A DNA stretch of 20,717 bases from Pigoraptor vietnamica (Eukaryota > Opisthokonta > Filasterea), in NCBI GenBank assembly GCA_943704525.1, contig CALSCQ010002968.1, forward strand, positions 1-20,717, in the 5' to 3' direction. A program made the translations under genes and the position numbers. The notes below the pieces were generated by a model that saw only the letters and a list, made by a program, of their open reading frames with translations, was not told the origin of the DNA and made no database searches. Below are positions 169 through 20,616 of the stretch, piece after piece (positions within the stretch are counted from its first letter, which is position 1; each line of letters begins with the position of its first letter).

Positions 169-2005
169 ATGGGGCTTCTGGGGGCCGTGCTGCGCTTGGC
201 CGCGGCCATTCTCCGCGTCACGGGCATCGAGTCAGTGCTCCTCTCCATCGGTCGCACCGTCGGCAAGTCCATACTCGCGTCCGTTGTCGCCGCGTGCCTG
301 CTCGTGGCGTCGACGTTCCTCTACGCGGCCTTCTACGCCCTCTACATCCCCACCGTCTCCCACGTCGTCCCGGTGCACTTTCAGATTGGGTGCGCTCGCG
401 TCGCGCACGCTGCGGCAGTGTGTGTTCCCTGCTGACACTGCTCGCGCTGCGCCGCAGGAGCGAACCGTCCCTCCCCGTGTACGAAGTGGAGCTCACGCCG
501 TACGACAGCGTGGGTGGCCTGCACTCGCGCTGATGGGCGCAACACCCCGATCTCTTTATCGCACCGCCACCCCCGCACCCGCCCACCCCTGCTCCCGTTG
601 CGCACGCAGCTGCTCCGCGGGGGCCAGGCGTACGACGTCTCCGTGGCCCTGGAGATTCCCGAGTCCGCCGTGAACCAAAACGCGGGCATGTTCATGGTGT
701 CGGTCGCACTCGAGTCGCGCGGCGGGGAGACCAAGGCTGTGTCCGCACGGCCGGTGGGTACGGTGGAGGGTAGCCGCGCAGCTGAAGCAAGGACACCCGC
801 TTCCCTCCCTCACTCGCACACGGCGTCGTGCTGCAATGGGATTGCCACAGTGCATGCTGTTGACATGGCTCGTCTCCATCAGACCATTCTGCGGCACAAG
901 TCGTTCCTTCTGCAGACGCTCTCGACGCTGTTTTACTCCCCCCTCCTCGTGCTGGGCCTCTCCGAGGAGAAGCAAATGTTGCGCGTGTTCCCCTTTGAGC
1001 GCTTCGTGGACGACTCGGTGGGCGCCGTGCCGTGCCGGGGCGTCCTGTTCGTAGTGGCAGTGCATGTGTGTGTGTATGTGCTGACGGTGGGACTGCCGCA
1101 GCAACACCCCGTCGTGCGCGCGCGCGTGTCGCTGTCTCGTCCGGACATTCACGTGTACTGGGCAGAGCTGCGCATCGACGCACACTTCACTGGCCTCAAG
1201 TGCGTACGGCAGCAAACAGTGTCACCCCGCTCAGTCTGCGTCCGTTTGACCAGGCCCTGACTACTGCTGTTAATACCGCGGTGTCCTCTGCGTCGCCCCG
1301 CACCCGCTTCACTCACTGCCCTTCCCTGCGCACACGCACGCGCTCCGCCCACAGCCCTTCGGTGTCTATTCTATCCCCGTAGTGTCACTCTCATGAACCC
1401 ACTCCATCCACTCCGTGCCCAGGTATTTCATGTACTGGTGGCCAGCGAGCGCCGCGACGGCAGGCGTCCTCGTCCTCTTCGCGTGGCAGTCGGCCATCGT
1501 CTTCCTTCTCTATCTCCGCTTCGCGCCTAAGCAGCCGGAGCGCCGCCGATCGTCGGTCGCCAGCGTGTCTGCGCCACCCCGTCCCGCGCTTGTCCAGACA
1601 CACGGACCGGCAACATCAAAGACGGTACGTGCGCCCTATCCTTCCTCTCTCGTGTATTGCGTGTTTACACACACAACCCCGCACATGCAGGCCGCCGAGA
1701 GCGCCGCGCAGGCCGCACACGCGGGTGAGCTTGCGGGCGGCGCGCCCATCGCCGACTGGCGCGGCGCACTCGACACCATCGCAGCCGCCGCGTCTGCCGC
1801 CGCCGACGGGGCCGGTGCGGCCATTGACGTGGTTGCGAGCGAGGTAGAGCGGCACGCGGAGGCGCGAAGCAGCGCCCAGTCCAGCACACCCGCCGAGGGC
1901 GAGCACGTGTCAACACCGCACGTCGAGACTATCGGCGCGGGCGAACCGCCGCGCACCCCGGGCTCGCCTGCGGACGGACTGCGGCGGAGACAGGGAAGGC
2001 AATAG
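169..2005 (+). CDS. Seipin, ER lipid-droplet assembly protein
   Basis: Seipin is an ER membrane protein that oligomerises at ER-lipid droplet contacts and controls droplet biogenesis (family knowledge). I model seven exons: 169-389, 458-509, 610-757, 851-1017, 1102-1199, 1423-1624 and 1691-2005, giving 400 residues. Donors are gtgcgc, gtgggt, gtacgg, gtgggc, gtgcgt and gtacgt; all acceptors are CAG and all phases agree. A first membrane segment covers about residues 34-60 (SILASVVAACLLVASTFLY). The lumenal core carries the family signatures VPVHF, PESAVNQNAGMF (human PESPVNQDLGMF), RGGETK and LRIDAHFTGLKYFMYWW (human LRIHAHFTGLRYLLYN). A second membrane segment lies at about 230-262. The cytosolic tail of about 138 residues is rich in Ala, Ser and Pro and looks disordered. 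The start is the first in-frame ATG, just before an amphipathic N-terminal helix. The last intron (66 bases) is stop-free and a multiple of three, so it could be retained. Identification is strong; exon 2 is the least constrained exon. Confidence 0.93.
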
Positions 2006-2092
2006 GCGCCCACGTGCACGCGCGCGCCCTGTAGATAAACCGCCTTGCGTCGTCCGCACCCAAACAGCGGCCAGCGGGGCAGCCCGCACTGT
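2006..2092. other. Convergent 3' spacer, seipin/PIG-F
   Basis: Only 87 bases separate the two stop codons, so the 3' UTRs probably overlap. A GATAAA about 30 bases after the seipin stop (2034-2039) is the nearest thing to a poly(A) signal. Nothing else is recognisable. Confidence 0.5.
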
Positions 2093-3022
2093 CTAGAGCC
2101 GCTTCTTCTTTGCGCGACGGGCGAGGACAAGCCCCAGCACCCCTCCCAGGTGCGCGCCCGCAAAGCACCCGACGGCGCACGTGATGGGCCACCGCTGCGG
2201 GCAACTGCTGTGAGCACACAAGGCATGACAGTCACGTACCACCCGCGACGCACCTGCCACGGGCGGTCCCAGTCGAGCGGAATGGGCAGCGCGCCGAGCC
2301 ACGCCCCGAGGGCCGCGCCCGCAAACAGCCCGCGGTTGAGATGCTCCAGCGCCGTCTCGGGCCTTCGACAGACAGCACTCGGCTCAGCTCCATGTCCACA
2401 GTCGCAAGAGCAGGCGGAGAGTGATACGCACCTTCCCCCCGCAAGCACGCGCACGGCGACGTCCCAGTCTGTCGTCGTCATGGCCGGCACGAGCGTGCCC
2501 GCCACTGCAATCTCGCACGCAAGCGCAAACGTCGCGGCAAAGTCACTGCGCAGCGTGACGTCAGCAGTGAGCACCAGCGTGCGACACCACCCGCCCGTCC
2601 AGTACATACTCGGTGATGGGCGCTCCAAAGAGAACGATGAGCACGTGCGCGACGAGCGCGGCGATGGGCACGACAAAGGCGGCCCGCAGCAACGCCAGCC
2701 ACTTCTGCGAGGAGGACATTGACGCGCGGAGGACAGAACATCCTGAGCGCTGCCCACAGGCGACAACGGCAAGTAACAGGCATGCAATGAGCACGAGCCG
2801 CGTGCGCACCTTTCCCTGCACAACTGCCGGCAGCGCGAGGCACGCGAGTGCCGAGGCAACGGCGTGCGCCTGCACGGCATCGGCGACGGCGACGGCGGGT
2901 GGCCTCTCACCCGAGAGCAGCGCCGCGCCGGGAGCGCTCGGCGGCCATAATAGCGCGCCCCAGCCAGCGACTGCGCCCGCCGCAAGTACTTCCGTGAGGT
3001 GGAGGGCGCGGGGGGAACGCAT
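2093..3022 (-). CDS. PIG-F/GPI11 family, GPI-anchor ethanolamine-phosphate transfer subunit
   Basis: PIG-F is a multispanning ER protein that stabilises the GPI ethanolamine-phosphate transferases PIG-O and PIG-G, in a late step of GPI-anchor synthesis (family knowledge). I model four exons on the minus strand: 3022-2610, 2545-2432, 2362-2254 and 2194-2093, giving 245 residues (human about 219). Donors are gtatgt, gtgcgt and gtgcgt, with phases 2, 2 and 0. Diagnostic motifs are VLFGAPIT near residue 133 and GAWLGALPIPLDWDRPWQ at about 195-212, almost identical to human GAWFGAFPIPLDWDRPWQV, followed by WPITC. Several hydrophobic helices run through the protein. It ends in KKKRL, which places lysines at -3 and -4 as in a KKxx ER-retrieval signal. 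The first ATG in frame is 3022; upstream frame extends only from a TTG. Intron 2 (69 bases) is stop-free and in frame, with a weak pyrimidine tract, so retention is possible. Identification is strong. Confidence 0.92.
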
Positions 3023-3093
3023 GGCGCAGAGGACGAAGTGTGTTGGACGCACAGGCAGATGCACACGGAGAACGCCTGAGTTGATGAAGGTCA

Positions 3094-3222
3094 AAGGGTG
3101 TTATGCTAGGTGAGTGTTGGCGCACGGTGGGTGTTACGTGCGTGTCCGCATGACGTGGATGTCTGCGCAGGGTGGGTGTTACAGCTCACGTCCCTGCAGC
3201 ACTCCGCGTGCGGTGGGTGTTA
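3094..3222. repeat. GGTGGGTGTTA direct repeats, about 41-45 base spacing
   Basis: The 11-mer GGTGGGTGTTA occurs three times exactly, 45 and 41 bases apart, with a shorter match about 30 bases upstream. Flanks (gcgcacGG, gcgcagGG, cgtgcGG) are also partly shared. This looks like a decayed tandem duplication or clustered protein-binding sites. Confidence 0.75.
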
Positions 3223-3422
3223 TGCCACATTTCGCTGATTGCGCGGCCTGCCAACAACGCCAAGGATTTTTCTGCGACGTCGGCGACTGCGTCATCGCGC
3301 TTTCTCCGCTTTTCTCTCGCGCACTTCGGACGCCGTCTCTCGTTCTTGTGGAGGGAGCGCAACCCGCGGGCGCCTTCCTTGAAGAGCTCAGTCGCAGTTG
3401 TCTTTGCTTGTTTGGCTCTACA

Positions 3423-3446
3423 ATGGGTTGGCGCGCGCCTGCTTAA
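3423..3446 (+). promoter_or_regulatory. Upstream ORF in the SET-gene leader
   Basis: An ATG in good context (acaATGG) opens a seven-codon frame, MGWRAPA, ending in TAA. It closes 49 bases before the main ATG. If the 5' UTR includes this point, it could reduce initiation at the main start. Its inclusion in the transcript is not shown. Confidence 0.4.
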
Positions 3447-3495
3447 AACGCGATCGGTGTGCTTCGTGGTCCGACCCACAGCCGCTGCCGTAGCC

Positions 3496-6400
3496 ATGGC
3501 GGACGTCACGTGTCGTGCGCTCGCCGAGCACGACGACATGGCGACGGCCGTGCTTGTGGACGCCGTTTTGGGCTTTCGCACGCACAAGATGCATGCGCGC
3601 TTCCGTCCGCGCAAGACGGACGCCGCGCTCCTGCAGTCCGTTCTCGGCAGCATTCGCGCGCCCGAGGACACCGTGCGCGCCTACCAGCGGCTGCTTGTGG
3701 ACGCGCCGATGTGGTCGCAGTCGCTGGCGCTGAGCGGGGCGCTTGGGACGGGCGGTGTGTACGGGGTGCAGTTTCGCGAGCACGCCCTGCGCTATCTCGC
3801 CATGTACCTCCCCGATGCGGGATACGAAATCACGCTCTGTGAGCGCTACTCGTCGGAGGAGCACCAGGAGGCGAAGGTCCAGGCGACGCGGCGATGGTGG
3901 GAGTGATTGGGAGCGACCTTGCTTCAGTTTGACGCACGGCTGACGTCACTCTGCTGCTCCGTAGGGCGAAGGGGGAGCGCATCGTGCACCTGTGCGGCTG
4001 CATTGCGGAGATACCCCTCGAGGAGGAGGAGGCGTTCCTGCGCCCCGGACAGAACGACTTTAGCGTCATGTATTCGACGCGCAAGGGGTGCGCGCAGCTG
4101 TGGTTGGGGCCTGCGGCATACATCAACCACGGTGCGTGTGCATTGCGGTGTTGTCGCTGCTGTTCTTGTGCTCTTTCTGCGTGGCTGTTGCCTTGCACAT
4201 CAACCGCGGTGCGTGTGATGCATTGCGTTGTGGCTGCTGTTGTGGCTGCTGTTTGTGCTGTGTCGGCTTGCATCATTTGCTGCGTGGCTAAACTGACGTT
4301 CGAATGCGCCGACAGACTGCGATTCCAACTGCAAGGTACGTGTCATGTCGTGGCTGTTGGTTGGGGCCCGTCGTGTTCAGTGAGACATCCACTAGTGTGT
4401 CTCCTGTATCTGTCGTGCGATGCCTAACTGCTGCGTGCGTGTGCGTGGCAGTTTGTGTCGACGGGGCGCAACACGGCGTGCGTCGTGGTGACCCGCGACA
4501 TTGAGCAAGGCGAGGAGATCACGTGCTTTTACGGCAAGAATTTCTTTGGCGAGCGCAATGAGCACTGCCGCTGCGAGACGTGCGAAAGGTGCGTCTGCCG
4601 CGTTGTTGCCGTGCAATTCCCAGGGCGCTCTTGCCACTTCGGTGCCTCTGCTGTGCGTGCGATTGCGTTGCTCACGTGCGCTGCGCAGGCGAGGCGAGGG
4701 CGCATTCCGCGACGAGTCCAAGTCGGAGGCTGCGGAGGGCGCCGAGGTTGAGGGCGGCGACTCGACCAAGCAGAAGTACGCGCTGCGTGGGCGCAAGCGG
4801 CCGCGGTTCGAAGCGCTAGGCGGTGCGTCGCCTGCGCCGGAAGACGAGAGCGGGCGGTCGGACACGACATCGTCGTCTCGGTGCGTGCGACCTAATAGTC
4901 TTGTCCGTGGAGTGGGCTGTTGTGAGAGGGCTTTCGGCCCGTTTGTGTCGTGCGGTTGCTGATATAGTTTCTCTCGCAGAATCGCGCCCATTGGGAGGAC
5001 GCGCGAGGTGGTCTTTGTGAATCCCCTCGACGAGCGCGAGCCATTCTGGTGGCCGGCAATGGTGGGGAGACTGCCTTTGCTGCGTCTGCTGTCGCTGTCG
5101 CCGTGCGTGTTGTTTGGTCCAATGGGATTCTCACAGTGTCTACGTATGGGCGCAGGTTGTGCCCCCGCGGGAGCTTGATGCAAGCATGCCACGCCCAGAC
5201 GAAGGCGACTGCGTCGTGCGTTATTTTGAGGACAACACATAGTGAGTGCGCGCGTGACGTCAGAGCAATGCCCTGCTTCTGACGCCGTGCCACTGCTGTT
5301 CACTAACGCCCTCCCGCGCGCAGTTCGACGGCCGACACCACCGAGCTGCGCATTTTCGCCGAGGACTCGCCCATGTTTGTCGAGTACGCGCGTCGCCTAG
5401 GTGACGATTTCCTTGACAACCGCAATGTGCAGCGCGCCCTGCGCTATCTGCGCACCGGCGCGCTGCCCAAGGGCTTTCGGTGGCCGCGGTGGCAGCCGGA
5501 TGACGTCCCGCGTGTCGCTCGCCCGCCGCGCGCGCAGCCGGCCGATGCGGTGGCTGCGCCGTCGGAAAGCGACGACGAGGACGCGGCAAGGGCGCGGCGG
5601 AGGGCTCAGTTGGCGGCATCCAGGGCGCAGCGGGCGGAGCTCCGAGCGGTGGGTGGCATTGACAAGTGATGGAGCGGTCGCAGAGTGGAGGGGATTTGAG
5701 TGCGCTATTGCGCCATTGAAGCTTTGTTGTCGATTTCTGACGGGTGACTGCGTGCAGGTCACCCCCGCGGCCAAGGCGCCCGTGCGGAAGGGCGAGACAA
5801 AGGGTGCGTTGGTTGTGCAGTTGCCGCGTCAGTTGTCTCGTGTCCCGCATAAATTCCCTTCTGAACCATCGCGGGATGGCGCAGAAACGTCCCCGTCGTC
5901 GGTGCGACGGCGAAGACCCTCGCTTGACTCGGCCAGCGCGGACGAAAAACGCGCCGAAATTCCGCGCAAACGGCGGCGGGTGACGGTGAGTTGGCGAGTG
6001 GCAGCGACGTGTTTTGCAGAATAGAGACGGCTCCTTTGCCGCACTTGTGGCGCGCGTGGCTCACCCGACCCCCTCTGATGTAGAGGAGCACATCGGTCGA
6101 CTCGGACGGTAGCCTTTCCGCGGCGAGCGGATCGAGCCTCGCGTCCGGTGGATCGCGCGTGCCGGGGACGAGTGCGTCGGGAACCCCGCGTGCGGAGCGC
6201 AACGGCGTCCGCACGCGCAGCAGCGCCGCGGGTGCGTTGGCGACTGTGGCGGAGCCTTTGTCGCCCGTCTCTGAAGAGGGGGAGCGGAAGCTGCGTGGGC
6301 GGAAGGCCGCCTCTCGCGCTGTGCGGACGCGGTCTTGGGGACACGCCACGAGCGACGATGCGAAGGCCGTTGCCGTGGCTGCGCGGCGCTCTGCCCGCAT

Positions 6401-6986
6401 CTCCGTCTCATCGACATCGTCGCGCGTTGCTACGGTGGACGAGAAATTGGACGTCGACGACAGGGGCGACGAGGTGGACCGCAGTGTGGCGGAGGGTGCG
6501 CCTTCTCCGGGCGGCGTGCGGATCGTCGTGGAGAGCGAAGAGGAGGAAGAAGACATGCACGTGGACGTTGTTGGTTCACCCCCTGCGTGCGACGGCGTGA
6601 AAGTAAGCTGCGGGGATGCGGCCGCGTGCGACGTGCTGCCCCACGAGCGCCAATCGCGCCGCGTTTCGCCCGAGCAGAAGCGGAGCTGTCCGTCGGCGAA
6701 TGCGGCGCGCGGCACCTCGCGCCCCTTTGGCGACTTTCTCATGTCGAGCATTCTGTCGGACAAGTCGTGGCTGTGGAATCCGCTGATGGGACTGCAACGC
6801 CCCGCGTCGCACGCTTCGTCCGAAGCACCCGGTGAATCTGCGGGCGACGCCATGGACACGGACGAGGACGACGGCGTGGTCACGCTGGCGCCCGCGCACG
6901 ACGCAGCCGCAGCCGCCGCGCCGCAGAGCCGGAAGAGTGTGTATGCGCATCACGCGCGTCTGCCTCTCGGGTCCGGATGGCCGTGA
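3496..6986 (+). CDS. Suv4-20/KMT5-type histone H4K20 methyltransferase with PWWP-like domain
   Basis: The SET domain matches the Suv4-20 (KMT5B/C; fission yeast Set9) family, which di- and trimethylates histone H4 lysine 20 in chromatin. I model ten exons: 3496-3896, 3965-4131, 4316-4335, 4452-4588, 4689-4880, 4980-5061, 5156-5241, 5324-5648, 5758-5985 and 6084-6986, giving 846 residues. Visible features include [12 protein letters not shown] in the N-terminal helical part, [11 protein letters not shown] and [12 protein letters not shown], then the 20-base exon coding DCDSNCK, then [18 protein letters not shown] and the post-SET cysteines HCRCETCER. From about residue 306 a royal-family/PWWP-like module follows: [24 protein letters not shown] and LRIFAED, then a helical part ([18 protein letters not shown]). 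The remaining 400 or so residues look disordered, with basic RKRRR and acidic EEEEED stretches. The start ATG (gccATGG) is preceded by an uORF. Family assignment is very strong; the PWWP call is good but unsearched; the exon 9-10 junction is the weakest. Confidence 0.9.
4132..4315 (+). repeat. SET-gene intron with duplicated splice-donor sequence
   Basis: The last bases of exon 2 plus the donor (catcaacc-ac-ggtgcgtgtg, from 4121) recur 77 bases downstream as catcaacc-gc-ggtgcgtgtg (from 4198). Shared flanking words (gcattgcg, gctgctgtt, gcgtggctgttg) indicate an old tandem duplication. The second copy leaves a decoy donor inside the intron. Confidence 0.7.
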
Positions 6987-7620: not shown

Positions 7621-8878
7621 GTACGTCGGCGCAGAGGGGGTAGGATATCTGCAGCGACAGAATGGGCTCCACGGCAATGCAATTCCAATACCTTTGTCCG
7701 CAAACGTGCACTCGGGCGACGTGTACACGCGCACGAGGAAGTTGAGCAGGGCGCCGCCCGCAATCACCGCCTCCATGCTCGTCATCTCGGCAAACAGCGC
7801 GCGGTCGATCGCAAACGGATTCGACGGCGGCGGACGCACGCCCACGCGCACCACTTCCGCGATAATCTCCCACGCCCGCACATCTGGAAAAAATATGGCT
7901 ATGTTGAGTGCGTGCGTGTGCGTGTGCGTGTGTCCCTACGTGCAGTGTGTGCACAAGCGCATCCCAGTCCCCATCGACCCACCGCGCGTCTTCCACTCGT
8001 CTGTGGACTTCAGACGCAGCGGGCGGTCGCGATCGACGGTCGTAGTGCCGTCCGAAGTGAGCGCAAGCAGCCGCCGGTGGTTCGTGCGCAGCTGCGGTGC
8101 CAGGTTGTGAGACGCCAGCTCTCAATTTCATCGCACACGTGCACACGCACCCAGACGTACGGGCACTTGTAGCGCGCGTATGCGGCCAGGAGAAACGCCG
8201 TCTCGTCTGGGTCCTGCTCCGGCGCAGGGATTAGCACAGCACATACCAAAGTGGCTGAAACATGATCGCGATAGGGTGCTTCACACGACGCACCTCGAGC
8301 GTGCCTTCGTTCATCGAAGGACTCGCCGGGGCGGGGGAGTTGCCCCCGTGCCCGCTGAAGCTGCGGGTCGAAATGTTGTGTCAGCTTTAATGTGTGTGCG
8401 TGTGCTCATGCGTGTAGTTGTGTGTGCATCGTGTTTCAATGTGTGCGCGTGCGTGCGTGCGAGATTTCCTGCGTGAGCGCGAGCATGCGTGCGTGCCTGA
8501 TCCCACAGTAACTGACATGACCTGCCAATACCCACAGAGTCCTGAAGCTGGGTGCCTTCTGGAGGTTGACGGCCGACGACGCGCGCGAGTGTGCGGGCGT
8601 CGCGCGGTTGTTGTACACCGTCACCAGCAGCTCCTCCCTCCCCCGCAGATACAGACGGAAGTGCTTGAAGCCGCTCACGCAGCCCGTGCGCAGGCACTCC
8701 CCAAGGAACGCGGGCAGCCGATTCGGAGGGACAGCCGCGTCCGCCGCAGCAGGCGTGGGTGCGGCCATGTGTGCGTACGCCTCCTTGCCTCGGAAACACG
8801 GAGAGGCAACGACAACGGCGCCCGTACTTTCTCAGCAAGCACGCGCACATGCACGCTTAGCTTCAGTGGGTTCGTCAT
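7374..8878 (-). CDS. Unrecognised protein, 272 residues, seven exons
   Basis: I do not recognise the family. The exon model on the minus strand is 8878-8828, 8783-8536, 8360-8294, 8213-8151, 8091-7983, 7883-7692 and 7462-7374. Every phase closes and the donors (gtacgg, gtgggt, gtgcgt, gtgcgt, gtgggt, gtattg) match the local style. One intron has a good branch-point-like gtgctaatcc. Conserved-looking blocks are FKHFRLYLRGREELLVTVYN, AYARYKCPYVWLRTNHRRLL, RPLRLKSTDEW, VRAWEIIAEVVRVG and a C-terminal LEDIRFLLRRHPGDLTDSF. It is a soluble, mixed alpha/beta-looking protein with no signal peptide, membrane segment or obvious catalytic motif. A proline/alanine-rich low-complexity loop sits near residue 25. 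The last intron carries the large CA repeat. The N-terminus is uncertain: the frame stays open upstream (CRLWLFVCAGQRYEG) to an acceptor-like ctcag at 8930, so another 5' exon may exist. It shares a short promoter with SNAPC4. Confidence 0.6.
7525..7620. repeat. (TG)n microsatellite in an intron
   Basis: About 96 bases of TG with ATTG interruptions, inside the last intron (7463-7691) of the unknown minus-strand gene, where it reads as (CA)n in the sense direction. Translations through it give artificial Thr-His or Cys-Val repeats. Confidence 0.97.
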
Positions 8879-9043: not shown

Positions 9044-11158
9044 ATGGAGAGCCATGCGCCCGACACACATGCGGCGCACGACGTCCACGTGACACTGGAG
9101 GGCTCGCCCGCGGGCAGCCATGGGGTGTTACACCCTCCCGCACACACGCACGACGCGTCTCCTGCGGCGTCCCCCGCTGCGCCCGAGCAGGTGCGCCGGA
9201 TTGCAGTCTTGCCGCTGGCAGCGCGTGCTCTTCTGAACTCAAGACAGTGCGATCTGTCGCTGCACGCGCGGAGTCAAATATGGCGACCATGTGATTATAT
9301 GTAACGCCTTGGTAACACACTCTTATTGTTGCAGGCGTCCCTCACGGCGACGCGGCGCGCATTGGCCCTCAACCGCGCCATACAGCAGCGACTACACGCG
9401 CAGCTGCAGCGCATCGAGCATGCCCAGGCGCGCAACACGGAGCTCCAGCGCCGATTCAAGGAACTCGCGACGCAGGCGGCACGGCCGGCCGCTCGACGCG
9501 AAACAATGGGCCTCGCCCGCAAGTTTTTGGGTCCGTACTTTGTGGACGTTCGCGGGGAAACTCCGCCGGATAATGACGACGCAAGGGAAAAGAAGGCGCT
9601 CGCTGCGCATGCGCCGGCAGTGCACCGCTCGCGCAAGTGGACGGATGCCGAGCGTGCGGCGCTGGCGAAGGGCGTGCGGCAGAAGAACCAGGAGCTGCTC
9701 ATGCGCCCGCTGCAGGACGACGCGCGCGCGGGGCTCTCGGGTGCGGAGCTTGCGCGGCGCTTGGATGCGATTCGCAATATGCCGTCGCGCGATCTCGAGA
9801 TGAACGTGCGCGGGATTGACTGGGAGCGGCTCGCGCGGACGCACCTGCCCGGGCGCTCGGGAGTGGACTGCCGGCTCCAGTGGCTGAACAACGACCACCC
9901 GCTCATCAACAATGGGCCGTGGACGCGCGCGGAAGATCGCGCGATTGTGCGGCTTGCGCACGAGCGCGGCGAGCTTCAGTGGGAGGCGATTGCGGAGGCC
10001 GTGGGGACCAACCGCACGGCAGCGCAGTGCCTGTCGCGCTACCAGCGGGCGCTGAATCCCGGCATGCTGCGCTCAAAGTGGACGCCGGAGGAGGACGCGG
10101 CGCTCGCGGCGGCTGTGCGGCGGCACGGGGAGGGCAACTGGCAGCAGGTGGCGTCGGACCTCGAGGGGCGCACTGGGCAGCAGTGCCTGCACCGGTGGCA
10201 GAAGACGCTCGACCCCGGCATTCGCAGGGGCAAGTGGACCGAGGAGGAGGACGGCGCCCTGCGCCGCGCCGTCGATCGCTTTGGCGTCGGCAACTGGTTC
10301 AAGGTGCAGACGCTCGTCCCCGGGCGCACCGACGTGCAGTGCCGCGAGCGGTGGGTCAACGTGCTCGACCCCGCGCTGTGCCACCAGCCGTGGTCGCGCG
10401 AAGAGGACGCGCGGCTGCTCGAGGCCGTGGCGCAATACGGCACGGGGCGCTGGTCGCGGATTGCGCAGGAGCTGCCGCCGCGCACCGATAACCAGTGCTG
10501 GCGGCGGTACAAGAGCCTCATGCCTATCGAGGCAGCCGCCGGCCACCGGCTCGTGCTCAGCGCCGTGGGCGGGCCGCCGAACCGCCGGAAGCGCACGCTG
10601 GACGAAATTGCGCCGCACATGGGCGCGCCCTCCGACAAGCGCCCGCGCGAGGACGGCGGCGCGCACCTGCCCCTCGTGCCGGCGGCGCAATCGCTGGTGG
10701 CGTCCATCCCGCGACCTCCCGTGCCGCCGCAACCGTCGGGCGCACGCCCCGTGTTTAGCGCCACGGCGGTTGAGACGGACGCGGGCGCGGCGACCGCAAT
10801 GTTTGAGGAGGTACGTGCATGTGGTCCGTGTGTACGTGCGCGTGCAGTGGGCCTTCGGCGTATGTGGCGGATGTGCGTCTGATGTGCGCGTGGACTACAG
10901 ATGTTCCGTGCGAACGCGCACCCGGAGGCCCCGCTCGTTGGCATCCCACCCTTGCCGCCGCTCGCCGCGACGGTGTCGGCGCATGCAGCGCTGCAGTTGC
11001 TGCTTGGCGACGCACGCGCACCGGAAGCGGCGCCGCCACCGCAAGTCGATCCCCGCGCCCTCGCCCTGCTGCAAACGCGCTTCCGTGCGCTGTTTGTGTG
11101 GCCGAGTATGCTGGCCGCAGCCGACTTGCAGGCGCCGACGGACGATGCGCCATCATGA
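9044..11158 (+). CDS. SNAPC4/SNAP190-like Myb-repeat snRNA transcription factor
   Basis: SNAPC4 is the large DNA-binding subunit of SNAPc, which binds the proximal sequence element of snRNA promoters for RNA polymerases II and III (family knowledge). I model three exons: 9044-9190, 9335-10810 and 10901-11158, giving 626 residues; all junctions are phase 0. A helical segment (RALALNRAIQQRLHAQL) and KFLGPYFVD...PPDNDDARE match the conserved part before the Myb array in human SNAPC4. A half repeat (IDWERLARTHLPGRSGVDC, about residue 210) follows, then four Myb repeats starting near residues 245, 297, 349 and 401. Each begins [PK]W[ST]xxED, for example KWTPEEDAAL, KWTEEEDGAL and PWSREEDARL. This 4.5-repeat layout is the SNAP190 arrangement. 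The C-terminal part is Pro/Ala-rich. Exon 1 (49 residues, Pro/Ala/His-rich) is the weak point: it rests on an in-frame ATG and a gtgcgc donor. The family is confident. Confidence 0.88.
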
Positions 11159-11453: not shown

Positions 11454-12773
11454 CTAGTTGTGCAGCTTGCACCCGGCGCAGTTGACGGGAAGCTCGGCGG
11501 GTGCGTAGATCTCGCGCGCCTTCTGTGCGCCCCCCACGGGCGGCGACGGGCTGACCTTGAGGAAGCCGACGCACCCCTTCTCCAGCCGAAAGAGCGAGTG
11601 GTCCAGCAGCGTGTAGTTGCCCGGCACAGGGACGCCGAACTCGACGACGGTCGTTCCGCCCGCAGGCACGGCGGTCACGTGGATGCCGCGGCTGGGCACG
11701 TCCATGAGGCTGCCCTCGCGGTACACCTTGTCGAAGACGACACCGATGACGTGGAATGACGACACGAGGTTGGGCCCTCCGTTGCCGAAGTAGATGCGCA
11801 CGCGGTCGCCCTGCTTAGCCAGCAGCGGGCTCTCGGTGAGCGCGCCCTCGCGCCCGTTCAGCACGACGTAGAGCGGGTTCTCCGCCACGCCGTCCGTGTA
11901 GCTCGGTATGAGGAGGTCCGACCCTCGCTCGGGCATCTCGGCGTAGATCTCGCTCTGCATGACGTAGTACTCGCGGTCGACCCTGGGCAGCCCCTCCTCC
12001 GGTTCGACGAGGATCAAGCCGTACATACCGTTGGCCACGTGCACGGGCACGGGCGCCGCGGCGCAGTGATACACGTAGAGACCCGCGTACTGCAGCTTGA
12101 AGGCCGCCGCACGCGTCTCGCCCGGCTCGGCGTAGAGTGCCGGGGCGCCGCCGCCCGGTCCGGTGAATGCGTGAAAGTCAATGTTGTGCCCGACACCCGA
12201 CTCGTCCTTGTTCGTGTAGTGCACCTCCACCACGTCGCCGACGCGCGCGCGGATGAAGGGGCCGGGCACGTGGCCGTCGAAGGTCCACATCGGGTAGCGG
12301 TGGCGGGGGCTGACGGGCAGGTTCTCGGACGTCGTGTTCATGGTGACAATCAGGCGCACGGGGTGCTTGCGGGTGATCGGCGGCGGCACTTCCGGTGCGT
12401 ACGTCGTCTTGGCCGCTTCCACGAGCAGTTTTGCGTGCACGTCTTTCACGACGACCTCGTCTGCGCGGTACTCGTGGTGCTCGATCAGCTGCCGCGTCGG
12501 CGCCGAATCGGATGGCTCCGGTCCCCCTTCCACGTCAGCGCTCGCGTGCGTGCGCGCACCCATGTACCAGAGGGTCGCGCCCACGCCCACCGCAGCCCCC
12601 GCCACCTGCGCAGCCCGGCGGACGAACGCCCCGCGCGCACTCCCCGCCCCGGCGGCAGTCGAGAGGCGTGCGACGGACCCCATCAGAGTCACGGGAACGA
12701 GGCGATCGCGACCGGAAGGGCAGCCCCGGCGAGCCACCGTTGCAAGAGTGCGCAGCATGGTGGCAGCCGGCAT
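11454..12773 (-). CDS. nirK: Copper-containing nitrite reductase, AniA-like, mitochondrial
   Basis: NirK reduces nitrite to nitric oxide as a trimeric two-cupredoxin-domain enzyme. All copper ligands are visible: type 1 His196, Cys237, His245 and Met250 (YHCAAAPVPVHVANGM); type 2 His201, His236 and His392 (LLDHSLF). Catalytic Asp199 (HNIDFHAFTG) and His341 (SSFHVIG) are also present. Seven residues separate Cys237 and His245, the short linker of the AniA/class II group; NGMYGLILVEPEEGLP and GNGGPNLVSSFHVIG strongly resemble Neisseria AniA. The first 75 residues replace a bacterial signal peptide with an Arg/Ala/Ser-rich presequence-like region, then a hydrophobic stretch (QVAGAAVGVGATLWYMG). 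This suggests mitochondrial import, possibly to the intermembrane space. The gene is one uninterrupted exon of 439 codons, unlike every neighbour. The first ATG is at 12773. A second at 12758 sits in a perfect Kozak context (GCCACCATG) and may be the real start, giving MLRTLATVARR. The tail ends NCAGCKLHN. Confidence 0.95.
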   Translation of the reverse strand: MPAATMLRTLATVARRGCPSGRDRLVPVTLMGSVARLSTAAGAGSARGAFVRRAAQVAGAAVGVGATLWYMGARTHASADVEGGPEPSDSAPTRQLIEHHEYRADEVVVKDVHAKLLVEAAKTTYAPEVPPPITRKHPVRLIVTMNTTSENLPVSPRHRYPMWTFDGHVPGPFIRARVGDVVEVHYTNKDESGVGHNIDFHAFTGPGGGAPALYAEPGETRAAAFKLQYAGLYVYHCAAAPVPVHVANGMYGLILVEPEEGLPRVDREYYVMQSEIYAEMPERGSDLLIPSYTDGVAENPLYVVLNGREGALTESPLLAKQGDRVRIYFGNGGPNLVSSFHVIGVVFDKVYREGSLMDVPSRGIHVTAVPAGGTTVVEFGVPVPGNYTLLDHSLFRLEKGCVGFLKVSPSPPVGGAQKAREIYAPAELPVNCAGCKLHN

Positions 12774-13182
12774 CGCCTTGCACGTCCTCCCCTTCCCCTC
12801 TCACCCTTCACCCTCCGTGTTTCGGTGTGGGCTTATTATATTGCCAGCATAAACAGAGGAGCAAGCCGTGACAGGACAGCTGCGATAGGCGAGAAATTCA
12901 CCCGGTGGTGGCAGTATGTGCTTGAGTATGGGGCAACTTGTGTGGCAGCCTGTCGCGAAGATGACAGCGCATGTGCGCTGTTGGGTTAAAAAAAAAAAAA
13001 AGTTTGGCGATGAAAACACAACTGCGCTCTTCCCCGTCGCTCACAACAGTTTGCGCGCAACTGCACTCTCTTCCTGTCGCTCATTACCGCTTGCACAACT
13101 CACATGAACGGGTGACGGCTGCGTGTGCCTGCGCCAGTGAGCTGCAGATTCATTAACCCACGGAGTGTTGGCGCGAGTGACG
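12774..13182. promoter_or_regulatory. Divergent promoter region, nirK/pinin
   Basis: This 409-base spacer separates two start codons. On the minus strand, AATATAATAAGC (12843-12832) is a TATA-like element about 60 bases upstream of the first nirK ATG. A 13-base A run near 12988-13001 could exclude nucleosomes. A two-copy direct repeat follows before the pinin start. The middle (12880-12980) shows nothing recognisable. Functions are inferred from position. Confidence 0.5.
13020..13098. repeat. Imperfect ~40-base tandem repeat upstream of pinin
   Basis: AACTGCGCTCTTCC then CGTCGCTCA (first copy) recurs as AACTGCACTCTCTTCC then TGTCGCTCA (second copy), followed by CAGTTTGCGCGC versus CCGCTTGCACAA. 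Both copies start with CAACTG, which fits both a Myb-type site and an E-box. Confidence 0.7.
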
Positions 13183-16659: not shown

Positions 16660-19600
16660 ATGGAGGGTTCCGAAGCCCACCTCCAGTGCCCGCATTGCGC
16701 GGCAGCGTGAGTGACGCACTTTCTGTGCGCTTGGAGATGCCCTTTGCCCCAGCTCCTCAGCACTCGACTGGTGGGGATCTAACCCCTCCGACTGCCCGTA
16801 CAGGATCAAGCCCAAAAACCCCCTCCCCTCCGGCGTGTACTCTGGCCGCTGCAAGAGCTGCGGCAAGTCGTTCACCTTTCGCGCTGTGCGTGCGAGTGAA
16901 GATGGCGCGACGCAGCGGGTTGCGCGCGCCCCTTCGGACGCCGCGGCGGTCTTTGCGGGGTCGTCTGAGCTCAACTTTGTGCTCAACGGACAGAACGTGC
17001 GCATCACGAACCCCGACCCTAGCATGACGCTGAACGAGTTCATTCGCTCGCGGCGCAATCTCACGGGGACGAAGCGCTCGTGCAACGAGGGCGGCTGCGG
17101 CGCCTGCGTCGTCGCCATGTCGCGCGATGGAACGACCGTCGCCGTCAATTCCGTGGGTGTCGTTTAGTATCGGAGCGAAAGTGTGGTACAGTGTGTGTGT
17201 GTATGTGTGTGCGTGCGTGCTGTGTGGCGTGCGCTGAGATTTCTGTGCGCTGTTCGTAGTGCCTGAAGCCTCTCTGCGCCGTCGACGGATGGACAGTGAC
17301 GACGACCGAGGGCATCGGCAGGTGCGTTTGAGACCCCTTGTGTGCCGCCACTGTGTTACGCTCAGCCGCCCTAATGTAACAACCTGTTACCCACGCAGCA
17401 ACAAGGCCGGCTTCCACCCCGTGCAGGAGAAGATTGCGTCGGGCAACGGCAGCCAGTGCGGCTTCTGCACGCCGGGCATGGTCATGTCGATGTACAGGTG
17501 CGTGCGCCGTGCGTGCTGCTCACGTGGGGGTGCGCCGTGCGTGCTGCTCACGTGGGCGTGCGCTGTGCGTATTGTGTCGCGTGGGGGCGTGTACCGTGGC
17601 GTGTGGTTATGCGCGTGCAATTGAGTTTGAATGCGGCCATTGTCAGCCCCCGAAAGTGGCTAAAATCGCCCATTCTCCACCCGCAGCCTTCTGCAGAGCA
17701 ACCCCACGCCCACGATGCAGGACGTCGAGGACGCCTTCGACGGCAACATCTGCCGCTGCACGGGATACCGCCCCATCCTCGAGGCATTCAAGTCGTTCGC
17801 CATCGACGCCCCGCACCACGCGACCTACGGTGGCATTGCCGATATTGAGGAGGCTGCGCGCAAGGCCTCTGCGGGCGGCGTGTGCGCGTCTGCCGCCGGC
17901 GGGTGCAGCTCTGGCGGGTGCGGCTCTGGCGGCTGCGGGTGCGCCAAGTCGGGCTCGTGCGGGTCGAAGGGCGCTTGCGGTGACATGCCCACGTGCTCGT
18001 TCCGCCCCATCGGCACCAAGTGCCCTGGCGTGGCGGCGTGCAACGTCCCGTCGACGTCACTCTCGGGCGGCTGCGTGCCGTGTGCGTCCGGTGTGGGTGC
18101 CGTGCCCGCGCGCGCACTCCGCTTCGCCGCGAACGGCGTCACGTGGTACCAGCCGACGACGCTGACGGACGCATTTGTGCTGATGCGCCAGCACGCGGGG
18201 GCCTACAAGCTCGTCGCCGGTAACACGGGCACGGGCATCTTCAAGGACGACAAGGCGCCCGTCCTCATCGACATCCGCTGCATTCCCGAGCTCTCGGTCG
18301 TTTCGGCGGACGCGCAGAAGGGCGTCACCATTGGCGCCGCCGTGACGATTACCGGCGTCATTGCGACGCTCACGGCGAACTCTGCGCTTTCGGCGTCGTA
18401 CGCCACGGCCGTCGCGCACCTCAAGAAGATCGCCGGCAAGCCCGTCCGCAACGTGAGTGGCGGCTCGCTTCATTCTTGCGTTGTTCTTGTTTTAATGGCT
18501 GTGTGCGTGTGCGTGTGTGTGCGTGTGTGCTTATCTTCCAACGTGAGTCGGACCGTACTTGTTTTGCGGTGTTGTGTTTCTAACGGCGTTTGTGTGTGTG
18601 CGCTCCTGCAGGCGGCCACGTGGGCCGGCAACCTGATGCTCGTGCACAACCACGCCGACTTCCCCTCGGACATGTGCACCGTGCTCGCGGGCCTCGGCGC
18701 GACCGTGCGCGTGGACTCGTGCACGGGCACGTCGATGGTGGGGGTTATGGACCTCCTCACGCTCGACATGACGGGTCGCATCATCACTTCGGTGACGATT
18801 CCCGTGCTCGCCGCCGACGAGGTGTTCCAGTCGTACAAGGTCATGCCCCGCCACACGGTCAGTGCCCTCCGCCGCACACTTTGATGTCGCCAGCTTGATT
18901 CAGAGACGGATGTTTGTCGACCCTGCCGTGTCTCTGAAAGAGAGAATACCCTCGGCTGTGTCGTGGTTGGGTATGTTCTCACGTGACGTTTGGCCCGTTT
19001 TGCAGAACGCGCACGCGTACGTGAACGCGGCCTTCCGCTTCAAGCTGGACGCGTCCCAGCGCATCTCGTCGCCCGTGCTCATCTACGGCGGCATTGGCCC
19101 TGAGCTTGTGCGCGCGTCGGCGACCGAGGCGTATCTCAGCGGGCAGTCGCTCACGGACGTGACGCTCGGCGGGGCGGTGACGAGCCTCATGAAGGAGCTT
19201 GTGCCTGACAACCCGCCGGTGGCGGCGAGTCCGGACTACCGCAAGGGCCTCGCGGCGTCTCTCCTCTTCAAGTTTATCGTGAAGGTAAGTGTTTTTCTGT
19301 GGCCATTGTCGCACCGACGTGCACGTCCCTCCCTCCCATCGACACTGCGCGATGCGGTGCTTCCACATCAATCCTCCGTGAATTTCGGTCTATTCGTTCA
19401 AAAGCTGAGCTGCGTCCCCATCGCAGCTCGTGGGCGCCAAGGCGGACCCGCGGGTGCAGTCGGCTGGCACGGAGTTTGTGCGGCCGGTGTCTTCGGGTGT
19501 CCAGTCGTTCACGTCGGACCAGTCTGAGTACCCCGTCTCGCAGCCCGTCGTCAAGCTCTCGTCGCACATTCAGGTGCGTCGTGCGCGTCGGCAGCAAAAA

Positions 19601-20599
19601 AAAAGCCCAAATGTCACTGTTGTAGTACACACTGTGTGCGCTGCGGTCACTTGTGCTCACAACTTACTCCTTGCTTGCTGCAGGCGAGCGGTGAGGCGCA
19701 GTACACGGAGGATATTCCCCCGCCCTCGAACACTCTCTTCGGCGCCTTCGTCATTACGACTGTCGGCTCTGCGACGATTGCGTCGATCGATGCCACGGCG
19801 GCGCTGGTGCGTGCGCATTCTGTGTGCCAGTCGTTACCGTGTGTTATGTGCCAGTCGTTACCGCGTATGTTGTGTGCCTTGGACGCGCCCACCCGCCTGC
19901 TTTCGGGGCTGACTTGCGTGCTTGGCTGTCGCAGGCGATGCCCGGCGTCGTGCGCTTCCTGACGGCGAAGGACATTCCCGCGAAGGGCCAGAACAACTGC
20001 AGTCCGGACACGCCCGAGGAGCTCTTCTGCTCTGGCACCGTGCTGTATGCCGGTCAATCGGTCGGACTCATCGTCGCCGACACGCAGGCGCACGCGGACG
20101 CCGCCGCCAAGGCCGTGGTGGTCACTTACACGAACGTGCAGAAGCCCATCCTCACGATCCAGGACGCCGTCGCCGCGAAGAAGTTTTTTGACAACCCCAT
20201 TCCGCCCCTCGCGATGGGCGACGTCGACAAGGCCTTCCCCACGTGCGCGCACGTGATTGAGGGGTCGGTCGAGTGCGGCAGCCAGTACCACTTCCACCTG
20301 GAGACGCAGGTGACGCTCGCCGTGCCCGAGGACAACGGCGGCTTCACGATCCACTCTGCCGCGCAGTGGCCTGACTACGTGCAGAAGTCGGTGTCGCAGA
20401 CGACGGGCGTCCCCATCAACATGGTGTCGGTCGAGGTCAAGCGCGTGGGCGGCGCATACGGCGGCAAGATCACGCGCAACCTGTCGACGGCGTCGGCGGC
20501 GGCGGTCGCTGCGTCGGTGCTCGGGTGCACCGTGCGCGTCGCGGTGAACCTCGAGACGAACATGGCGATGATTGGAAAGCGCCACCCCTTCCTCGCCAA
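16660..20599 (+). CDS. Xanthine dehydrogenase/aldehyde oxidase with N-terminal zinc ribbon, partial
   Basis: A molybdenum hydroxylase of purine or aldehyde oxidation. The window has ten exons: 16660-16706, 16804-17152, 17260-17321, 17399-17497, 17687-18452, 18612-18857, 19006-19284, 19427-19573, 19684-19806 and 19935-20599. They give 927 residues; a final donor (AA|gtgagc) shows that the gene runs past the right end. Residues 10-35 form a CxxC-x18-CxxC ribbon ([12 protein letters not shown]), absent from ordinary family members. Next come the plant-type 2Fe-2S domain (Cys109, Cys114, Cys117, Cys133) and the helical 2Fe-2S domain (CGFC 173-176, CRC 208-210). A Gly/Ser linker with 12 cysteines follows at about 252-318. 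The FAD domain has [11 protein letters not shown] and AATWAGNLM. The molybdopterin half begins with [14 protein letters not shown] and reaches [22 protein letters not shown] and GKRHPFLAK. The Gln before the HFHLE stretch matches the Mo-near Gln of xanthine oxidase. Residues that separate xanthine dehydrogenase from aldehyde oxidase lie mostly beyond the edge. Confidence 0.93.
17502..17590 (+). repeat. 28-base minisatellite in a xanthine dehydrogenase intron
   Basis: GTGCGCCGTGCG-TGCTGCTCACGTGGG is repeated at 17502, 17530 and, with changes, 17558. The array starts just four bases into the intron and each unit begins with a donor-like GTGCG. Confidence 0.8.
19823..19861 (+). repeat. 22-base direct repeat in a xanthine dehydrogenase intron
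   Basis: TGTGCCAGTCGTTACCG occurs at 19823-19839 and 19845-19861, inside the intron 19807-19934. A two-copy tandem duplication near the donor. Confidence 0.85.
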
Positions 20600-20616
20600 G
20601 TGAGCGTCGCATGCGG

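Follow-up and report, generated by a model that had tools for sequence, protein, structure and literature searches.

A KMT5B/SUV4-20-type methyltransferase gene of Pigoraptor vietnamica that appears to carry an ARID4-like RBB1NT/PWWP module

To our knowledge, the full-length KMT5B and KMT5C proteins of animals have no PWWP or RBB1NT module. PWWP domains (Pfam PF00855) bind DNA and, weakly, methylated lysines, and RBB1NT (PF08169) is the PWWP-like domain of ARID4. In fission yeast, Set9 is recruited to chromatin by the PWWP domain of Pdp1, which binds H4K20me1, as outlined in PMC3119473; a study of Zymoseptoria reports no true Pdp1 orthologue there, and a dependence on Pdp1 that is not general in fungi (PMC10553808). 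ARID4A and ARID4B, members of the mSin3A complex, are described as having Tudor, PWWP, ARID, chromobarrel and R2 domains (PMC8038949) or, in another account, Tudor, RBB1 N-t, ARID and chromo domains (PMC12147562). When both Arid4a and Arid4b are deleted in the mouse, the Prader-Willi imprinting centre has less H3K9me3 and less H4K20me3, and the accessible part of that paper names no direct contact between ARID4 and KMT5B/C that would explain the loss of H4K20me3 (PMC6947649). The combination of SET and a PWWP-class reader within one protein is already known from the NSD family and the plant ATX proteins, as summarized in PMC3457860, and it is also found in the genome studied here.

The protein described here shares with KMT5B and KMT5C the N-terminal domain, the SET core, the NHDC motif and the post-SET cysteines, together with a KYxLR region as in KMT5B, but differs from both in the PWWP/RBB1NT module that comes after the catalytic part. 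With ARID4A and ARID4B (RBBP1) it has in common a whole-length RBB1NT match, a later helix and an acidic tail; here, however, the module follows a SET domain, and residues 1-470 give no match to Tudor, ARID or chromobarrel. As in the Set9/Pdp1 pair of S. pombe, a predicted H4K20 methyltransferase is paired with a PWWP-type reader, although yeast has two proteins where there would be one here, and chain 2l89 ('PWWP domain-containing protein 1'), which we take to be fission-yeast Pdp1, resembles the module less than ARID4A does. The NSD and ATX proteins resemble it in their overall combination, but their SET domains belong to other families, whereas the module of our protein looks RBB1NT-type and is placed after SET. 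Among the matches listed in a search of the open-access literature by titles and the starts of abstracts, we found no KMT5-PWWP or KMT5-RBB1NT fusion, which is a weak negative. The contig collections searched for relatives hold viruses and prokaryotes, and their results therefore have no bearing on the spread of the fusion among eukaryotes: the module gave four candidate stretches in viral contigs and the SET core 525 stretches in genome contigs and 15 in viral contigs, with none confirmed for either.

The window, that is, the whole stretch of 20,717 nucleotides that was analysed, is one contig (C1236) of a 32.5 Mb genome in 1395 contigs; its G+C content is 64% and its genes have introns. The gene occupies 3496-6986 of the + strand. 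Its 11 exons, joined from the DNA, give one predicted frame of 819 residues with a single, terminal stop, running from an ATG at 3496 to the stop at 6986, and all introns are of the GT..AG type:

3496..3896, + strand, exon 1: start codon and N-terminal KMT5 domain, up to residue 134
3965..4131, + strand, exon 2: first part of the SET domain
4316..4335, + strand, exon 3: 20-nt microexon that contributes to the NHDCxxNCK motif (SET core)
4452..4588, + strand, exon 4: end of the SET core and post-SET cysteines (CRCETCER)
4689..4880, + strand, exon 5: remaining KMT5 region (RGEGAF, KYALR), aligned to human KMT5B chain 8t9f_K, and linker
4980..5061, + strand, exon 6: beginning of the RBB1NT/PWWP-like module
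5156..5241, + strand, exon 7: module core (VVPP...VRYFEDNT)
5324..5648, + strand, exon 8: C-terminal part of RBB1NT (until ~5471) and acidic tail
5758..5803, + strand, exon 9: in-frame retention of intron 9 is also possible
5885..5985, + strand, exon 10: basic linker
6084..6986, + strand, exon 11: C-terminal region, 300 residues

If intron 8 were kept, a stop would follow after 476 residues, with both domains still present. The region encoded by exon 11 has no Pfam match at E <=0.1, and the protein had no match in NCBIfam, a library for prokaryotes.

Exons 1-5 encode, by similarity, a KMT5B/SUV4-20-type methyltransferase, for which H4K20 activity is predicted. The SET domain occupies residues 128-224 (Pfam SET 51.3 bits, cut-off 22.4), and the closest solved relative of residues 4-243 is human KMT5B (chain 7yrd_K, E 6e-76), which bears out the sequence-only reading of this stretch in its claim of a Suv4-20-family SET domain. 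Identity to human KMT5B amounts to 122 of 233 aligned residues, and to 78 of 115 in the SET core. KMT5B and KMT5C make up the ten best of the 27 matched solved sequences (E 6e-76 to 4.2e-69), with KMT2D next at 3.2e-5. The NHDC motif and the post-SET cysteines, presumably zinc-binding, align with those of human KMT5B. The KMT5B alignment crosses the border between exons 4 and 5 (CERRGEGAF) and extends into exon 5, where KYALR stands opposite KYGLR of chain 8t9f_K; exon 5 is thus part of the KMT5 gene. When the genome was searched with the whole protein, nine matches were obtained at E <=1, seven of them in the window and two, to the module only, on another contig (C1027), and there was no second KMT5-type SET among the best-scored candidates.

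A royal-family module lies at residues 315-411, encoded by exons 6-8 and beginning ~65 residues beyond the post-SET cysteines. An isolated 115-residue segment passes the cut-offs of two Pfam profiles: RBB1NT, of whose 94 positions it covers 8-94 (31.9 bits against a cut-off of 25, E 1.4e-7), and PWWP, of whose 93 positions it covers 13-63 (31.6 bits against 25.6, E 2.4e-7). None of five control shuffles of the segment matched either profile. A PWWP-like module about 60 residues after the SET domain had been proposed from the letters alone, with residues ~300-420 named for a profile search, and both its placement and, for the WWPA segment, its royal-family character hold up in this search. The choice between RBB1NT and PWWP is a near tie on bits, and when the protein is scanned over 470 residues, PWWP leads narrowly (28.7 bits, against 27.2 for RBB1NT); coverage of the profile favours RBB1NT. 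A genome-wide RBB1NT search had no match anywhere, the window included, because introns interrupt the coding sequence of the domain, so that this search cannot show absence.

The two matches on C1027 belong to a paralogue (L013, 165-1880) whose contig begins inside the gene, so that whatever precedes the module lies off the contig. It carries the module from VVPP onward, 39% identical to that of the window in a pair alignment. Both introns that flank the module core (the VVPP...EDN exon) agree in position and phase between the two genes, and a reverse search with the C1027 protein recovers the window (E 1.2e-5), which argues that the module is a shared inheritance of both. Taken alone, the C1027 fragment scores below cut-off with RBB1NT (21.1 bits, cut-off 25), with PWWP (16.3 bits) and likewise with the bacterial toxin family Ntox8 (21.3 bits); the module is followed by GATA-like and then PHD-like zinc fingers, all of them below cut-offs. 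On a further contig (C1107), positions 5999-6232 resemble the GATA-like region of this gene and lie ~1.6 kb before a SET match at 7835-8080, possibly marking another SET protein of unusual make-up.

Searches against solved structures bear on the kinship of the module. With its sequence alone, DNMT3B came first (E 0.23) and ARID4A second (0.35) among five matches at E <=10. A two-sequence profile of the module and the C1027 paralogue, which also matched five solved sequences in total at E <=10, gave ARID4A 7v8n as the best match (E 2.9e-4, 24 bits), ahead of ARID4A 2yrv (0.0031), DNMT3B (0.016) and ARID4A 6l87 (0.016), the first place of ARID4A being reached only once the paralogue joins the profile. 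The ARID4A alignment takes in a later 'QKAxxFLxT' helix and the acidic tail. The module therefore looks ARID4-type (RBB1NT) rather than Pdp1-type, as far as profile and structure matches can tell. The strongest competing view, which we consider unlikely but take seriously, is that KMT5 acquired an ordinary PWWP domain in a separate event, as the NSD and ATX SET proteins did, and that the likeness of the module to ARID4 reflects convergence among royal-family domains. Such an origin would fit the PWWP score, which exceeds its cut-off and is the slightly higher of the two in the longer protein, the lead of DNMT3B in the single-sequence search, the WWPA of the module, closer to the PWWP motif than the WYPA of ARID4A, and the fact that PWWP-SET proteins are common, with an NSD-like one encoded in this genome. 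It is harder to reconcile with a PWWP match that stops at position 63 of 93 where RBB1NT extends to 94 of 94, and with the top rank of ARID4A in the two-sequence search. Moreover, of three PWWP regions of the same genome taken as controls, none had an RBB1NT match at E <=10, these being one complete region, from the NSD-like protein (PWWP 60.6 bits, SET 93.2 bits), and two single-exon fragments, drawn from three of the four other PWWP loci, with the fourth (L004) left out. In a by-eye alignment, the three cage positions of PWWP domains, taken from the description in PMC3119473, are P, W and Y in the module, and the proline at the first of them makes methyl-lysine binding by the module uncertain.

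That the SET domain and the module reside in one protein, as had also been claimed from the sequence alone, is supported by the single open spliced frame of the 11 exons and, for the junction of exons 5 and 6, by splice sites, phase and the lack of an ATG between 4558 and 5059. Exons 1-6 joined are recognized as SET only, exons 7-8 reach just 13.4 bits with RBB1NT, below the cut-off, and exon 8 alone gives no match, so that recognition of RBB1NT needs exons 6, 7 and 8 spliced together. Alternative transcripts could in principle yield two proteins instead, a SET-only form of 332 residues with intron 5 retained and a module protein that starts from ATG 4558 with intron 4 retained; both frames are open, and from ATG 4558 the retained intron 4 reads into exon 5 (ORF 4492-4962). 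We regard this as quite improbable. Introns 4 and 5 have the same GT..AG ends as the other introns, and the KMT5 similarity spans the junction of exons 4 and 5 as in human KMT5B, which indicates that intron 4 is normally removed. Furthermore, 4558 and 5059 are the only ATGs in 4500-5070, the latter being the methionine of WWPAM, and a separate module protein would thus require an unusual transcript.

The sequence-only reading had gone on to see in the gene a fusion of the H4K20 writer with its reader partner, as if Set9 and Pdp1 had been joined, and of this the presence of a PWWP-class module on an H4K20-type SET protein stands, whereas the kinship with Pdp1 is outscored (E 0.53, against 2.9e-4 for ARID4A and 0.016 for DNMT3B). 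Although the recruitment of Set9 through H4K20me1 binding (PMC3119473) makes a Pdp1-like PWWP fused to its writer an appealing idea, and 2l89 is one of just five solved sequences at E <=10 in the profile list, we hold it to be very improbable, since this chain, the one Pdp1 chain compared, comes fifth and last at 13.5 bits, far below the 24 bits of ARID4A, is missing from the five matches (E <=10) of the module sequence alone, and stands for a dependence not found throughout the fungi (PMC10553808). The chain aligns with profile positions 25-93, through the barrel and some of the stretch beyond it, and the later helix that the module shares with ARID4A falls outside.

The domains that accompany RBB1NT in animal ARID4 are encoded elsewhere in this genome. 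The KMT5-module protein has no match to Tudor, ARID or chromobarrel in residues 1-470 or in the last exon, and all three are found in an ARID4 orthologue on contig C774 (L038, ~1731-4020), with a double Tudor (E 4.2e-31 to ARID4B chain 7dm4), an ARID (79.8 bits) and a Tudor-knot chromobarrel (51.1 bits). A Pfam scan of the spliced model of this orthologue gave no RBB1NT up to E 10. On the solved human construct 7v8n, the module with its acidic tail maps to 14-133 and the ARID portion of the C774 product to 111-234, which places RBB1NT just before ARID in human ARID4A. In the C774 gene, the end of the Tudor exon (2332 of L038) and the start of the ARID exon (2617) are separated by 284 nt, including a 22-nt microexon and in an open frame, and this is too short for RBB1NT and two introns, so that the domain would not fit between Tudor and ARID. 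Nor was RBB1NT found in the 8-kb ARID4 locus when the window and 42 loci were scanned with a profile; E <1 was reached only by the window or C1027, with the next values at 1.2, 4.1 and 10, and it should be noted that the profile was built from the window, C1027 and human ARID4A, so that these self matches follow from the way it was made, and the scan had no further, independent RBB1NT gene as a positive control. Judged by these searches, RBB1NT is present on the KMT5 and C1027 genes and absent from the ARID4 of C774, a distribution that may reflect either a move of the domain or its loss from ARID4 after duplication. A Sin3 corepressor domain is encoded on contig C1249, and an ARID4-Sin3 setting may therefore exist here.

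Based on this comparison we can propose, with moderate confidence, that the product of the gene is an H4K20 methyltransferase of the KMT5B/SUV4-20 type which carries an ARID4-type RBB1NT module and targets itself in cis. The ligand of the module would be nucleosomal DNA, a methylated histone tail or both, and the bound module would hold the catalytic domain on that same chromatin, so that methylation could be targeted without a separate recruiter. Since animal ARID4A/B have the module and the ARID4 of this genome does not, the fusion can be read as the transfer of a domain to the enzyme side, or its retention there, within a pathway that ARID4 and H4K20 methylation would share. The fusion suggests that the KMT5 enzyme and ARID4 act on the same chromatin. 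A bolder version, which we put forward tentatively and would not yet count on, is that, within a single pathway, RBB1NT changed from one protein to another: it would have left ARID4, or never joined it, and would now sit on the H4K20 methyltransferase, a true Rosetta stone. If so, animal ARID4 and KMT5B/C are predicted to form a physical or functional unit in which RBB1NT delivers the enzyme. More specifically, a KMT5-RBB1NT fusion in a genome whose ARID4 lacks RBB1NT leads to the prediction that ARID4 recruits or contacts KMT5 through its RBB1NT/PWWP region.

The KMT5-module gene shares the window with several other genes. A spliced seipin gene lies upstream at ~436-1530 on the + strand (Pfam Seipin 126.2 bits on the joined exons). 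Downstream, an open frame at 9305-10882 on the + strand encodes five Myb-like repeats and is presumably SNAPc4-like, and another at 11454-12800 on the - strand has the multicopper oxidase domains Cu-oxidase_3 and Cu-oxidase_2, in what we take to be a protein of the copper nitrite reductase type. Finally, exons at ~16700-20600 on the + strand resemble, in our estimation, xanthine dehydrogenase.
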